In this document: positions 25,765-30,259 of the stretch, in pieces
Layout: the number at the start of each line of letters is the position of its first letter
Numbering within the stretch: position 1 is the first letter of the stretch
Assembly (NCBI GenBank): GCA_025055575.1
Contig: JANWWP010000026.1
Span: forward strand, 1 to 56,334
Reading direction: 5' to 3'
Length of the DNA stretch: 56,334 nucleotides
Origin: Flavobacteriales bacterium
GTDB lineage: Bacteria > Bacteroidota > Bacteroidia > CAIKAF01
The notes under the pieces: generated by a model
Told to the model about the DNA's origin: nothing
The model's input: the letters and a program-made list of their open reading frames with translations, nothing else
The model's database searches: none
Translations under genes and position numbers: made by a program

Positions 25765-26100
25765 TTAATCCCGTGAGGAGGCCTCGGAAAGCAGAGATTG
25801 TCCTAGCCAGTGCCGCACCTCTTCCGGCAGGTAGTCTGCCCTGAAAGCTGTAATGGCAGGCACCTGATAGGGATGGTGGGCCCGCACGGTGGCCACAAGC
25901 GGGTCCAGAAGTTCTTCGGATGATTTGATGAAGGCCAGCACTTCCGTATCGGTCTGCACCTGATTGTCCCATCTGTACACAGAGCGAATTCCCGGAAAAA
26001 TATTGACGCACGCGGCAAGTCTTTGCTCCACCAGAAGCCGGGCCACACGTTCGGCAGAAGCCAGGTCCGGAAAAGTGATAAAAATCTCCAGAAAATTCAT
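25765..26100 (-). CDS. cutA: CutA1-type divalent cation tolerance protein
   Basis: 111 residues, the usual size of the small trimeric CutA1 proteins. Marks are ITFPDLASAERVARLLVEQ, RLAACVNIFPG, SVYRWDNQVQTDTEVLAFIK and HPYQVPAI. Its physiological role is poorly settled; metal binding and PII-like fold are known. The ATG overlaps the lpxD stop by 4 nt (ATGA), which places it as last gene of acnA-efp-lpxD-cutA. Confidence 0.95.
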   Translation of the reverse strand: MNFLEIFITFPDLASAERVARLLVEQRLAACVNIFPGIRSVYRWDNQVQTDTEVLAFIKSSEELLDPLVATVRAHHPYQVPAITAFRADYLPEEVRHWLGQSLLSEASSRD

Positions 26101-27038
26101 ATTCCCAATTTTTTAAAAACTTCCGACAGTCGCTGACGCAGAATAATTTCCCTGTGCTTTTGAAAGGCTTCCACAGCCGGATTGCCAAAATATTTTTTCC
26201 CTGGTTCCAAGGGGTTCATCACCCCGGAGCGGGCAAGCACCTGAGCCCCGGCCCCTATGCGGACTTCTTTGGTGACGCCCACCTGGCCCCATAAAACCAC
26301 GTCATCTTCCAGCACACAAAAGCCGGCGATTCCGCACTGGGCCGCCATGAGAACGCGTTGCCCCACGCTGACGTCGTGGCCAATGTGCACTTGGTCGTCC
26401 AGTTTGGTGTGGGCGCCCAGGCGGGTATCGCCTGTGACGCCGCGGTCGATGGTGCAGAGTGCCCCCACTTCTACATGGTCTTCCAGGATCACGCGGCCGC
26501 AACTGATAAACTTATCAAACCCCGTATTACCGCGCCGCCTGAAATAAAAAGCATCGGCCCCGATGATGCTGCCGGAATGAATGACGCAATGCGCGCCAAT
26601 GTGGCAGTTGTCGTATATGACCACATGGGGGTGAATCACTGTGCCAGGCCCCACCGTCACATCTTTTCCTAGATATACGCCCTCCGCCACGCGGGCTGTG
26701 GGATGCACTTGGGGCGGGGCGCCCAGGTGCCCGGAATTCCGGGCATCCTCCTGCACCATCCGGATGAGTTGAACGAAGGCTTCAAAAGGGTCTGTAGCCG
26801 TGAAAAATATTTTGGAAAAGGCCCCGACCGGGATAAGACCTTCCCGGACGATGATGGCCGCCGCCTCCGACTTAAGGGCTTTGGAAAGATACTTGGGATG
26901 GTCCGCAAAACATACCTCCCCCGGGCTTACTATATGCGTATCATTCAGGCCCGTGATTTCAGCATCTTTTGGTCCCTGCACCCTCATTCCGAGCCTTTCG
27001 GCGATTTCGGCAGAGGTGTAAGGGCGGTGGAAGCGCAC
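26097..27038 (-). CDS. lpxD: LpxD family UDP-3-O-acylglucosamine N-acyltransferase (second-copy type)
   Basis: 313 residues. An N-terminal nucleotide-binding domain (about 1-105) is followed by left-handed beta-helix hexapeptide repeats (about 108-270) and a helical C-terminus. DDQVHIGHDVSVG carries the histidine expected at the LpxD active site. LpxD transfers a hydroxyacyl chain to UDP-acylglucosamine in lipid A synthesis. Bacteroidota commonly have an additional LpxD-like gene next to efp, distinct from the one in the lpx cluster; this is that context, so the true substrate might differ. Start is 2 nt after the efp stop. Confidence 0.88.
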   Translation of the reverse strand: MRFHRPYTSAEIAERLGMRVQGPKDAEITGLNDTHIVSPGEVCFADHPKYLSKALKSEAAAIIVREGLIPVGAFSKIFFTATDPFEAFVQLIRMVQEDARNSGHLGAPPQVHPTARVAEGVYLGKDVTVGPGTVIHPHVVIYDNCHIGAHCVIHSGSIIGADAFYFRRRGNTGFDKFISCGRVILEDHVEVGALCTIDRGVTGDTRLGAHTKLDDQVHIGHDVSVGQRVLMAAQCGIAGFCVLEDDVVLWGQVGVTKEVRIGAGAQVLARSGVMNPLEPGKKYFGNPAVEAFQKHREIILRQRLSEVFKKLGI

Positions 27039-27040
27039 GG

Positions 27041-27607
27041 TTACTTGACGCGTTCGTAGTACTCGCGGGTTTTGGTATTCACGCGGATGCGCTCTCCCTG
27101 CTGGATGAACAACGGCACCATCACTCGGGCGCCCGGCTCCACGGTAGCAGGTTTGAGGCTGCCGCCGGCTGTATCGCCTTTCAGTCCGGGTTCGGTGTAG
27201 GTGACTACCGTTTCCACGTGGGTGGGCAGTTCGGCAAATAAAGGCAGGTCTTCCTCCGCGTGGAAAACCACTTCAATACCTTCCATGCCGTCTGTGAGAA
27301 ATTCGGCCCCTTCGATCACATCTTCCTGCAGGGTGATCTGGTCGAAGGTTTGCGTATTCATGAAGGTGTAGCCGCTGTCGTCTTTGTATAAAAATTGAAA
27401 GGGCCGGCGCTGTATGGTTTGAATGTCCACCTTTTCATCGGCGCCAAAAGTGTGGTCAAATATTTTCTGGGACTGGATATTTTTAAGCTTTGTGCGCACA
27501 TTGCTGCCGCCGCGTCCTGTCTGGAAGCGTTGAAAATCCAGAACTATGCACAGTTGGCCATTAAAGCGGATGCAGGTGCCGCGCTTAATGTCGGAAATGG
27601 TGGCCAT
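27041..27607 (-). CDS. efp: Elongation factor P
   Basis: 188 residues, three OB-like domains, full length. It relieves ribosome stalling at polyproline. The tip loop reads FQTGRGGSNVRTK, so the residue that aligns with modified Lys34 of E. coli is Arg32 and the usual Pro before the Gly is Thr. The C-terminal signature (GDTAGGSLKPATVEPGARVMVP) is intact. It starts 3 nt after the acnA stop and lies 2 nt before lpxD. No modification gene is visible in the window. Confidence 0.97.
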   Translation of the reverse strand: MATISDIKRGTCIRFNGQLCIVLDFQRFQTGRGGSNVRTKLKNIQSQKIFDHTFGADEKVDIQTIQRRPFQFLYKDDSGYTFMNTQTFDQITLQEDVIEGAEFLTDGMEGIEVVFHAEEDLPLFAELPTHVETVVTYTEPGLKGDTAGGSLKPATVEPGARVMVPLFIQQGERIRVNTKTREYYERVK

Positions 27608-27610
27608 CTC

Positions 27611-30259
27611 TCAGGATTTCAAAAATTGACGCAAGACATATTGCAGAATGCCGCCGTGGCGGTAATATTCAATTTCTATGGCCGAATTCAGCCGGCAGAT
27701 GGCGTGAAACTGCACGATCGATCCATCGGGCTTTCGGGCGGTTATGCGCAGCGGCTTTCCTGGTGTCAGGCCATCCTCGATGCCTTCGATGTCGAAGGTT
27801 TCATGTCCTGAGAGCCCCAGGCTTTCAGTGGATTCGCCCGGACAATACTGAAGCGGCAAAACGCCCATCCCTACCAAGTTGCTGCGGTGAATCCTTTCGT
27901 ACGATTCAGCTAAGACAGCGCGTATCCCCAGCAGAAAAGTGCCTTTGGCAGCCCAATCCCGGGAAGACCCGCTGCCATATTCCTTACCGGCCAGCACCAC
28001 CAGGGGTGTGCCGCGGCGTTGGTATTCCATCGCGGCCTCATACACTGTCGTTTCCGTGCCCTCGGGAAGCAAAAGAGTGAATCCGCCTTCTTTAGATGCA
28101 AGTTTGTTTTTGATGCGCACGTTGGCAAAAGTGCCGCGGATCATCACTTCGTGGTGGCCCCGGCGGGAACCGTAGGAATTGAAATCGGCCTTTTGGACTC
28201 CGTGGCTCAGCAGGTACTGGCCGGCTGGAGTATTTTCTTTAAACGAACCGGCGGGGGAGATGTGGTCGGTGGTGATGGAGTCGCCCAGGTTCAACAGGAC
28301 CCGAGCTCCCCGGATGTCAGTTGGAGTTCCAGGTTCCGCGGAAAGATTTTTAAAAAAGGGCGCCTCTGCAATATATGTGCTTTTGGGATCCCACGGAAAA
28401 ATGTCTCCTTCCGGGGCGTCTAATGCCTGCCAGCGCTCATCTCCTTCAAAAACACGGCCGTATTCGCGGGCAAAGGCTTCGGTGGTGACAGCTTGTGCCA
28501 CGGCGTCCTGAATTTCCTGCGAGGAGGGCCAGATATCCTTCAGATAGACCGGACGGCCTTCTCGGTCCACGCCGATGGGATCTTCCGCCAGATTGATATC
28601 CGTGGTACCGGCCAGAGCATAAGCCACCACCAGCATCGGCGAAGCCAAAAAGTTCATTTTTACCTGCGGATGTACCCGCGCTTCAAAATTCCTGTTGCCG
28701 CTGAGCACAGCCGCCACCACCAACTGTTCGGCGTCGATGGCGGAAGAAATATCCTCGGGCAAGGGGCCTGAGTTACCTATGCAGGTGGTGCAACCGTAGC
28801 CTGCCAGGTGGAACCGAAGGGCTTCCAAATCTTCCAGAAGCCCCGACCGCTTGAGGTAATCGGTGACCACGCGCGACCCGGGCGCCAGAGAAGTTTTCAC
28901 CCAGGGGCGGGTTTGCAAGCCCAGCTGGCGGGCCTTTCGGGCCACCAAGCCGGCCCCGATCATGACGCTGGGATTGCTGGTGTTGGTGCAGGATGTGATA
29001 GCGGCGATCACCACATCGCTGTCCTGCAGTACATGACCGTTGAAGCGGGCTTTTTCGGAAGATTTTTTGTCCCCGTTGCGGCCAAAATCCTGGCTAAGGG
29101 TTTTGCGAACCGTGGTTTTTAGCTCGTTGAGGGGCACGCGGTCTTGCGGGCGTTTGGGGCCGGCCAAGGTCGGCTCCACGGTGGTCATATCCAAGTCCAG
29201 GACATGGGTATAGTTTATGGCCTCTTCATTTTCCCGCCACAATAGATTGGCTTTGCAATATTCTTCAACCAGACGCACCTGAGCTTCGCTGCGATGGGTT
29301 TTACGCATGTAGTCGAGAGTTCGGTCGTCAATGGGGAAATACGTGATGGTGCAGCCAAATTCGGGAGACATGTTGCTGATGGTGGCCCTGTCTGGAACAG
29401 TGAGATGATCCAGCCCCGGACCAAAGACCTCTACAAATTTTTCCACCACGCCATATTTTCGGAGCAGTTGGGTGATGGTGAGCACCAGATCGGTGGCGGT
29501 GACCCCTTCGCGCAGGCGGCCGGTCAGCCTGAGACCAATCACTTCGGGCATAACGAAAAACAGCGGTTGACCCAGCAACGCGGCTTCCGCTTCGATGCCG
29601 CCCACGCCCCATGCCACCACGCCTATGCCGTTCACCATGGGTGTGTGGCTGTCGGTTCCAACCAAGGTGTCCGGGAAAGCCAATCCGTCCCGCACCGTCA
29701 CGCCGGATGCCAGGTACTCCAGGTTCACCTGATGACAGATGCCCATGCCGGGGGGGACTACATTGAAATTCTTAAAGGCTCTTTGGGCCCATTTCAAAAA
29801 ACGGTAACGTTCGCCGTTGCGCTGGTACTCCAGCTCCATATTTTTTTCGAGAGCATCTGGCCGGCCAAAAACATCAATCATGACGGAATGGTCAATCACC
29901 AAATCCACGGGGACCAGGGGGTTCACACGACGGCCATCCTTACCCTGCCGCACCGCCTCCGCGCGGATGGATGTGATATCCACCACCGCAGGCACCCCTG
30001 TAAAATCCTGCATCAGAACGCGGGCCGGCTTGAAGGGAATTTCACGGTCCGCGGGCTGGGGTTGCCAGTGCAGCAACGTCTCTACATTTTCTTGCGTGAT
30101 GGCAAATCCATCGTAATTCCGCAATGCGTTTTCCAGCAAAATTCGAATGGAAAAAGGCAGGCTGCTTATGGGGTAGCCTTTGTTTTCCAGTATCCTTAAA
30201 CTATAATATTCAGGGCCCGAAGCGTGCAGTCGGGTGCGAATACCTAAAAAATCCTGCAT
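27611..30259 (-). CDS. acnA: Aconitate hydratase (AcnA/IRP type)
   Basis: 882 residues. Interconverts citrate and isocitrate in the TCA cycle. The [4Fe-4S] cysteines are visible in SCTNTSNPSVM and GYGCTTCIGNSGPL; other marks are LMQDFTGVPAVVD, TDSHTPMVNGIGV, GDSITTDHISPAG, NSYGSRRGHHEVM and KEYGSGSSRDWAAKG. First gene of a four-gene minus-strand unit with efp, lpxD and cutA, with gaps of 3 and 2 nt and a 4-nt overlap. A good promoter lies 20 nt upstream. Confidence 0.98.
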   Translation of the reverse strand: MQDFLGIRTRLHASGPEYYSLRILENKGYPISSLPFSIRILLENALRNYDGFAITQENVETLLHWQPQPADREIPFKPARVLMQDFTGVPAVVDITSIRAEAVRQGKDGRRVNPLVPVDLVIDHSVMIDVFGRPDALEKNMELEYQRNGERYRFLKWAQRAFKNFNVVPPGMGICHQVNLEYLASGVTVRDGLAFPDTLVGTDSHTPMVNGIGVVAWGVGGIEAEAALLGQPLFFVMPEVIGLRLTGRLREGVTATDLVLTITQLLRKYGVVEKFVEVFGPGLDHLTVPDRATISNMSPEFGCTITYFPIDDRTLDYMRKTHRSEAQVRLVEEYCKANLLWRENEEAINYTHVLDLDMTTVEPTLAGPKRPQDRVPLNELKTTVRKTLSQDFGRNGDKKSSEKARFNGHVLQDSDVVIAAITSCTNTSNPSVMIGAGLVARKARQLGLQTRPWVKTSLAPGSRVVTDYLKRSGLLEDLEALRFHLAGYGCTTCIGNSGPLPEDISSAIDAEQLVVAAVLSGNRNFEARVHPQVKMNFLASPMLVVAYALAGTTDINLAEDPIGVDREGRPVYLKDIWPSSQEIQDAVAQAVTTEAFAREYGRVFEGDERWQALDAPEGDIFPWDPKSTYIAEAPFFKNLSAEPGTPTDIRGARVLLNLGDSITTDHISPAGSFKENTPAGQYLLSHGVQKADFNSYGSRRGHHEVMIRGTFANVRIKNKLASKEGGFTLLLPEGTETTVYEAAMEYQRRGTPLVVLAGKEYGSGSSRDWAAKGTFLLGIRAVLAESYERIHRSNLVGMGVLPLQYCPGESTESLGLSGHETFDIEGIEDGLTPGKPLRITARKPDGSIVQFHAICRLNSAIEIEYYRHGGILQYVLRQFLKS

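Follow-up and report, generated by a model that had tools for sequence, protein, structure and literature searches.

An arginine-tipped EF-P shared by a family of Bacteroidota, in several genomes beside an asparagine-tipped second copy, that may work unmodified

The window (the whole stretch of DNA analysed, 56,334 nucleotides) encodes an EF-P with arginine at the tip, and a second EF-P, with asparagine at that place, was found elsewhere in the same genome (G000; 2.44 Mb, 84 contigs, 99.83% complete); neither of the two EF-Ps found there has the tip lysine. EF-P function is generally taken to require a modified lysine or arginine, and most EF-Ps carry a modified lysine. The preferred reading, held at a probability of about 0.6, is that the Arg-tip protein is an inherited EF-P that would work unmodified, with the Asn-tip EF-P working beside it in genomes that have both copies. 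With the second EF-P, the question widens from a single odd residue to a pair of factors, and with both proteins present stalled ribosomes may be relieved without the usual EF-P modification enzymes. An earlier note on this DNA had reported the Arg tip and its QTGRGG loop. That observation was borne out; the interpretation held in part, the second, Asn-tip EF-P having been missed. The features concerned were as follows.

27041-27607, minus strand: efp, encoding the Arg-tip EF-P of 188 residues, QTGRGGS loop with Arg32 at the tip (open reading frame, profiles, alignments and model)
27500-27535, minus strand: loop DNA with flanks, FQRFQTGRGGSN, the stretch matching the Arg-loop pattern (pattern match)
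26097-27038, minus strand: LpxD-type acyltransferase gene, directly downstream of efp after a 2-base gap
25765-26100, minus strand: cutA, overlapping the LpxD-type gene by 4 bases; order kept in genome G001
27611-30259, minus strand: aconitase gene, directly upstream of efp across a 3-base gap; order kept in G001
Contig C31, L075:8921-9481 (L002:1300-1860): second EF-P with Asn tip, a 187-residue open reading frame beside dapB

The efp reading frame opens on the minus strand with the ATG at 27607 and closes with a TAA that ends at 27041. Its product scored 207.7 bits against the NCBIfam EF-P model TIGR00038 (cut-off 185.8), which places it among the EF-Ps, and all three Pfam EF-P domains were above their cut-offs. 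The Asn-tip protein, likewise intact, scored 228.6 bits against the same model, and its loop reads HRTPGNLRAF (TPGNLRA). Residues Q29, G31, R32, G33, S35 and N36 were invariant in all 15 aligned Arg-type EF-Ps of family f1 (family and genus labels, f1 and g5, were assigned by the analysis tool). Comparison of the window's genome with G001 gave pN 0.141 and pS 0.801 for the Arg copies and pN 0.124 and pS 0.799 for the Asn copies, for which no pN/pS ratio is given because pS is near saturation; pN was far below pS in the other six pairs compared as well. Judged by these substitutions, both genes are plainly kept by selection. Sequencing error, chance and a decayed gene were ruled out as explanations of the Arg tip by the invariance of the loop in the 15 family sequences and by the low pN.

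In alignments, Arg32 matched Lys34 of E. coli EF-P and Arg32 of the Pseudomonas and Neisseria proteins without a gap in the loop, and it also aligned to the Arg of Thermus thermophilus EF-P (PDB 1ueb). An AlphaFold2 model of the protein (mean pLDDT 86.8) has hairpin strands at residues 18-29 and 35-43, so that the turn is predicted to be T30-G31-R32-G33-G34 with Arg32 at its centre. By structural alignment the model matched Thermus EF-P 1ueb with Z 19.9 and rmsd 3.1 over 178 residues (36% identity) and ribosome-bound E. coli EF-P 6enj with Z 16.3 and rmsd 3.6 over 185 residues; its best structural match was C. glutamicum EF-P (Z 21.3). The alignments and the model confirmed what had been proposed by eye, namely that Arg32 stands where E. 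coli EF-P has Lys34 and that Thr replaces the usual Pro of KPGKG; the loop, QTGRGGS, has the normal length. A structural alignment that moved another Lys to the tip had been named as a ground for dropping the claim. This was ruled out: the alignment with E. coli EF-P has no gap around the loop, and Arg32 stays at the tip, mid-turn in the model.

Of the 1166 EF-Ps surveyed by Volkwein et al. (2019, PMC6544042), 14.75% have an Arg tip, and Pro occurs at -2 in only 2.33% of those, a rarity that makes Thr at -2 the expected state of an Arg-tip EF-P. The surrounding loop had been described as different, but for an Arg-type EF-P it is not odd: loss of the Pro at -2 is the rule there and GRGG is nearly the Thermus loop, so that the loop alone demands no new modification.

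EF-P was found in 58 of the 60 genomes searched (own genome included), 16 of which belong to family f1. An Arg EF-P (QTGRG or QSGRG) is present in 15 of these 16; the exception, G007, is 77% complete and shows the Asn copy alone. Nine of the 16 have both Arg and Asn EF-Ps, and in genus g5 the Arg copy is the sole EF-P found in all six genomes (94-100% complete). Across a class-wide sample, EF-P was found in 375 of 395 genomes (own genome again included). Pattern searches counted exact matches, so that their figures are lower bounds (G003, with the aligned loop QSGRGSS, escaped the Arg pattern). They placed the Arg loop in 14 of the 395, all of family f1 (14 of 16 f1 genomes, 0 of 379 others), and the exact Asn loop in 172, 10 of them f1; with this spread, the mechanism of the Asn tip becomes a question wider than one odd gene. 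The Asn-tip loop accounts for 2.23% of the 1166 published EF-Ps (PMC6544042). Among the matches listed from a collection of 84,980 species, which may lack some records close to the window, 80 EF-P loci were kept, 6 with Arg and 74 with Lys tips. The reservation that Arg might be the ordinary and well-described state of this lineage proved right as to ordinary, given 15 of 16 family genomes; open-licence papers yielded no description of it, nor any of an Arg and Asn EF-P pair, of family f1 or of an Asn-tip EF-P in Bacteroidota.

The phylogeny of EF-P tips in Bacteroidota that had been called for was built. Among 68 EF-Ps placed in a tree, the Arg copies of f1 grouped as a single clade (100/99) within the Bacteroidota EF-Ps of Lys type, and its Asn copies as a separate clade (98/93) among those of Asn type. 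With EF-Ps of Pseudomonas, Neisseria and E. coli and Citrobacter EfpL added in a 41-row tree, the six f1 Arg rows stayed within Bacteroidota and the Pseudomonas-Neisseria pair stood apart (100/99). Both trees were built with the loop columns included. The closest proteins by tree are the Lys-type Bacteroidota EF-Ps (KPGKG; 46-53% identity for the nearest named ones among the matches listed), which have Lys and Pro where the window's EF-P has Arg and Thr. Of 15 f1 loci, 14 have an LpxD-type gene close to the Arg copy, against 9 of the 18 Lys loci read, a comparison in which the flanks differed in length (some 4 kb at most family loci, 1-1.5 kb at the rest) and the LpxD queries match both LpxD-type genes. 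Among 12 f1 loci examined it was the next same-strand gene in 10, the exceptions being a locus cut by a contig end and G006. In other families it was found near 8 of 23 Asn loci, so the slot is not bound to one tip type; the neighbours of the f1 Asn copies were common within a genus only (10 loci). The tree shows, and synteny supports, a single origin, in the family ancestor, of the changes from Lys to Arg at the tip and from Pro to Thr at -2, within an EF-P inherited vertically in Bacteroidota. Two other Arg tips lacking the Pro were seen in the class, KTARAAA (L057, G049) and KQARAAG (L074, G016); these fall elsewhere in the tree, so that the Arg label needs three changes on it.

Like the window's protein, T. 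thermophilus EF-P (PDB 1ueb, 4v6a) has an Arg tip, a GRGG loop and no Pro at -2, and alignment to 1ueb showed all three of these marks of the Thermus-type unmodified Arg EF-P in the window's protein; the loops read KLGRGGA (QKLGRGGAKV) and QTGRGGS, at 36% identity between the proteins. Thermus Arg32 contacts C75 of the tRNA CCA end and is named an adaptation to the lack of modification (PMC2821294); the unmodified state is proposed there as the paper's statement, not as mass data. No description of a second EF-P was found for T. thermophilus, whereas the window's genome has two EF-Ps. PMC2821294 also gives Arg in 24.1% of EF-Ps from genomes without yjeA/yjeK, and Yanagisawa et al. (2016, PMC4739656) list Borrelia burgdorferi, with Arg32, as lacking an EarP homologue. 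The combination of an Arg tip with no EarP is already known from Thermus (PMC2821294) and Borrelia (PMC4739656), precedents that the earlier note had missed along with Arg as the ordinary state in f1. Arg32 of the window's protein may likewise work unmodified, as proposed for T. thermophilus with its near-identical loop. E. coli EfpL, although its loop is longer, has an Arg33 that is unmodified by mass spectrometry (PMC11611912), so an unmodified Arg tip can serve. Identity with EfpL (YeiP), which also has an Arg tip and is one of two EF-P-like proteins per genome, was ruled out for the window's EF-P by its EfpL/YeiP profile scores below cut-off (137.4 against 216 bits and 123.6 against 264.05 bits) and by its shorter loop; the loop of Citrobacter EfpL is two residues longer and has a conserved Pro, whereas the window's protein has no Pro at -2.

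Counting against the unmodified reading, E. coli EF-P K34R has 20% activity and K34 changed to A, M, N or Q is inactive (PMC6544042), and unmodified Neisseria EF-P is inactive on E. coli ribosomes and weak in Neisseria (PMC4739656). The inactive K34N also makes a simple account of the Asn copy harder to uphold, although the TPGNLRA loop of that copy differs elsewhere too. A ribosome long co-evolved with Arg and Asn factors may differ in this.

The EarP-type EF-Ps of Pseudomonas and Neisseria share with the window's protein the Arg tip, the lack of Pro at -2 and the loop length; it differs from them in having no EarP found in its genome and in its separate place in the tree, at 30% identity, and so has the tip of this type and neither its enzyme nor its grouping. 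At E 0.001 the EarP profile (PF10093) matched nothing in the window's genome, nor in any of 395 Bacteroidota genomes, searches that alone prove little, their built-in controls having been silent throughout. Because those controls were silent, a Pseudomonas plasmid with an annotated earP beside efp was added; it matched at 532 bits, and EarP was found in none of 15 family f1 genomes (own included, the incomplete G007 left out). A divergent EarP missed by the profile would find a loop that fits EarP substrates (Gly before Arg, no Pro), but its rhamnosylating Arg32 is barely credible given the silence of PF10093 at E 0.001 in the 15 family and 395 Bacteroidota genomes, with the control at 532 bits, and the grouping of the window's EF-P apart from those of Pseudomonas and Neisseria. 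With EarP not found, either an unmodified Arg or another modification is left. These were the two outcomes drawn in the earlier note, which gains from the EarP result and loses its argument from the loop, as the loop itself needs no new modification.

The proposed genome search for earP and epmA/epmB was run and gave nothing above cut-off: EpmA (TIGR00462) and EpmB (TIGR03821) were each absent at that level from all 15 family genomes. Matches to the EpmA profile of 234-260 bits lay in frames of >500 residues in 14 of the 15 and, by the analyst's reading, are probably lysyl-tRNA synthetases (LysS); EpmB gave matches of 96-98 bits in three genomes. Both profiles match E. coli, and the controls above cut-off numbered two and one, unnamed in the output. 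With its Arg tip and no EpmA or EpmB above cut-off in 15 genomes, the window's EF-P falls outside the EpmA/EpmB-dependent type. In the window's own genome the best EpmA-profile match reached 50.9 bits, which may reflect a missing contig or a lysyl-tRNA synthetase of another class.

Alternatively, Arg32 could be the substrate of a so far undescribed enzyme, such as a glycosyltransferase with no relation to EarP or a transferase of another kind. Leaving EfpL and Thermus aside, most well-studied Lys and Arg tips carry a modification (PMC6544042, PMC4739656). Conservation of the loop across 15 sequences is as strict as it would be in a recognition site, and a transferase may lie elsewhere in the genome. 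Modifiers of EF-P often adjoin efp, however (PMC2821294, PMC4739656), and none was found among ten neighbour proteins of the Arg efp scanned with Pfam (LpxD-type, CutA, aconitase, SpoIIE, ABC ATPase, LpxC and HD-associated); the remaining neighbours, at loci L037 and L043, were judged from first residues only. As the near-identical Thermus loop is also described as functional without modification (PMC2821294), such an enzyme is considered rather unlikely.

A deoxyhypusine-synthase-like protein (PF01916), present in 44 of the 60 genomes including the window's (G000:C74:11527-12438), was considered as a modifier and rejected. Outside family f1 it was found in 22 of 23 Asn-tip genomes against 5 of 17 Lys-only ones (Fisher p 1.2e-5, too small a value because the genomes are related; counts made by hand after dropping the 16 family genomes, the Arg genomes G016 and G049 and the EF-P-less G020 and G050). 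Within f1 it is present in 15 of 16 genomes, all six Arg-only genomes included, and therefore singles out neither EF-P copy. The G006 protein (L157), aligned to solved deoxyhypusine synthases, keeps the Lys of its WGK stretch, presumably the catalytic one.

Genomes with two EF-P-type genes have been described before, with EfpL beside EF-P, in some lactobacilli, and with Ala or His paralogs in Geobacter, Pelobacter and Alcanivorax (PMC11611912, PMC2821294). In the 395-genome class sample, 17 genomes outside f1 had two or more EF-P matches (two-copy genomes were picked by eye from the match table). Fifteen of them pair one Asn tip with one Lys tip (a third, partial match in G176 was unread), G717 has two Lys tips, and the second match of G535 is under cut-off within an 808-residue frame; an Asn and Arg pair occurs in none of the 17. 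Pairing of unlike tips is thus recurrent in the class. Together with the two intact, conserved copies in 9 of the 16 family genomes, this would suit a division of labour in which genomes with two copies use the Asn-tip EF-P as their general factor and the Arg-tip EF-P as a specialised helper comparable to E. coli EfpL, an arrangement that can hold together with the unmodified reading. The Arg copy, however, sits in the old lpxD slot and is the sole EF-P found in genus g5, so that it can itself be the general factor and the Asn copy the helper; the roles as first stated are quite improbable.

Under the preferred reading, in which the inherited Arg-tip EF-P works unmodified, the Asn-tip EF-P would work beside it in the window's genome and in eight further family genomes, where its presence is observed and its role conjectural; in genus g5 the Arg copy is the only EF-P found. 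It may further be suggested, tentatively and with some doubt, that the two non-Lys EF-Ps share out the stalling motifs, neither being modified, and that g5 lives on Arg alone; if so, EF-P would have been freed from modification in two ways within one cell. A family with two intact non-Lys EF-Ps, in which EarP, EpmA and EpmB were not found at the cut-offs used, and a sister genus with the Arg copy alone form a natural experiment, bearing on how a tip can function without modification and on the purpose of a second EF-P.

In family f40, Asn-tip and Lys-tip EF-P genes stand in tandem at loci L196, L210 and L209 (G134, G192 and G689), with domain matches about 680-700 bases apart. The motif HTMPGKGGAFYQVKMK with a Lys tip was seen at L013, L184, L186, L189, L191 and L197; L013, the sole one of these placed in the tree, falls with modest support within the Asn-type clade, a position that would mean a reversion from Asn to Lys.
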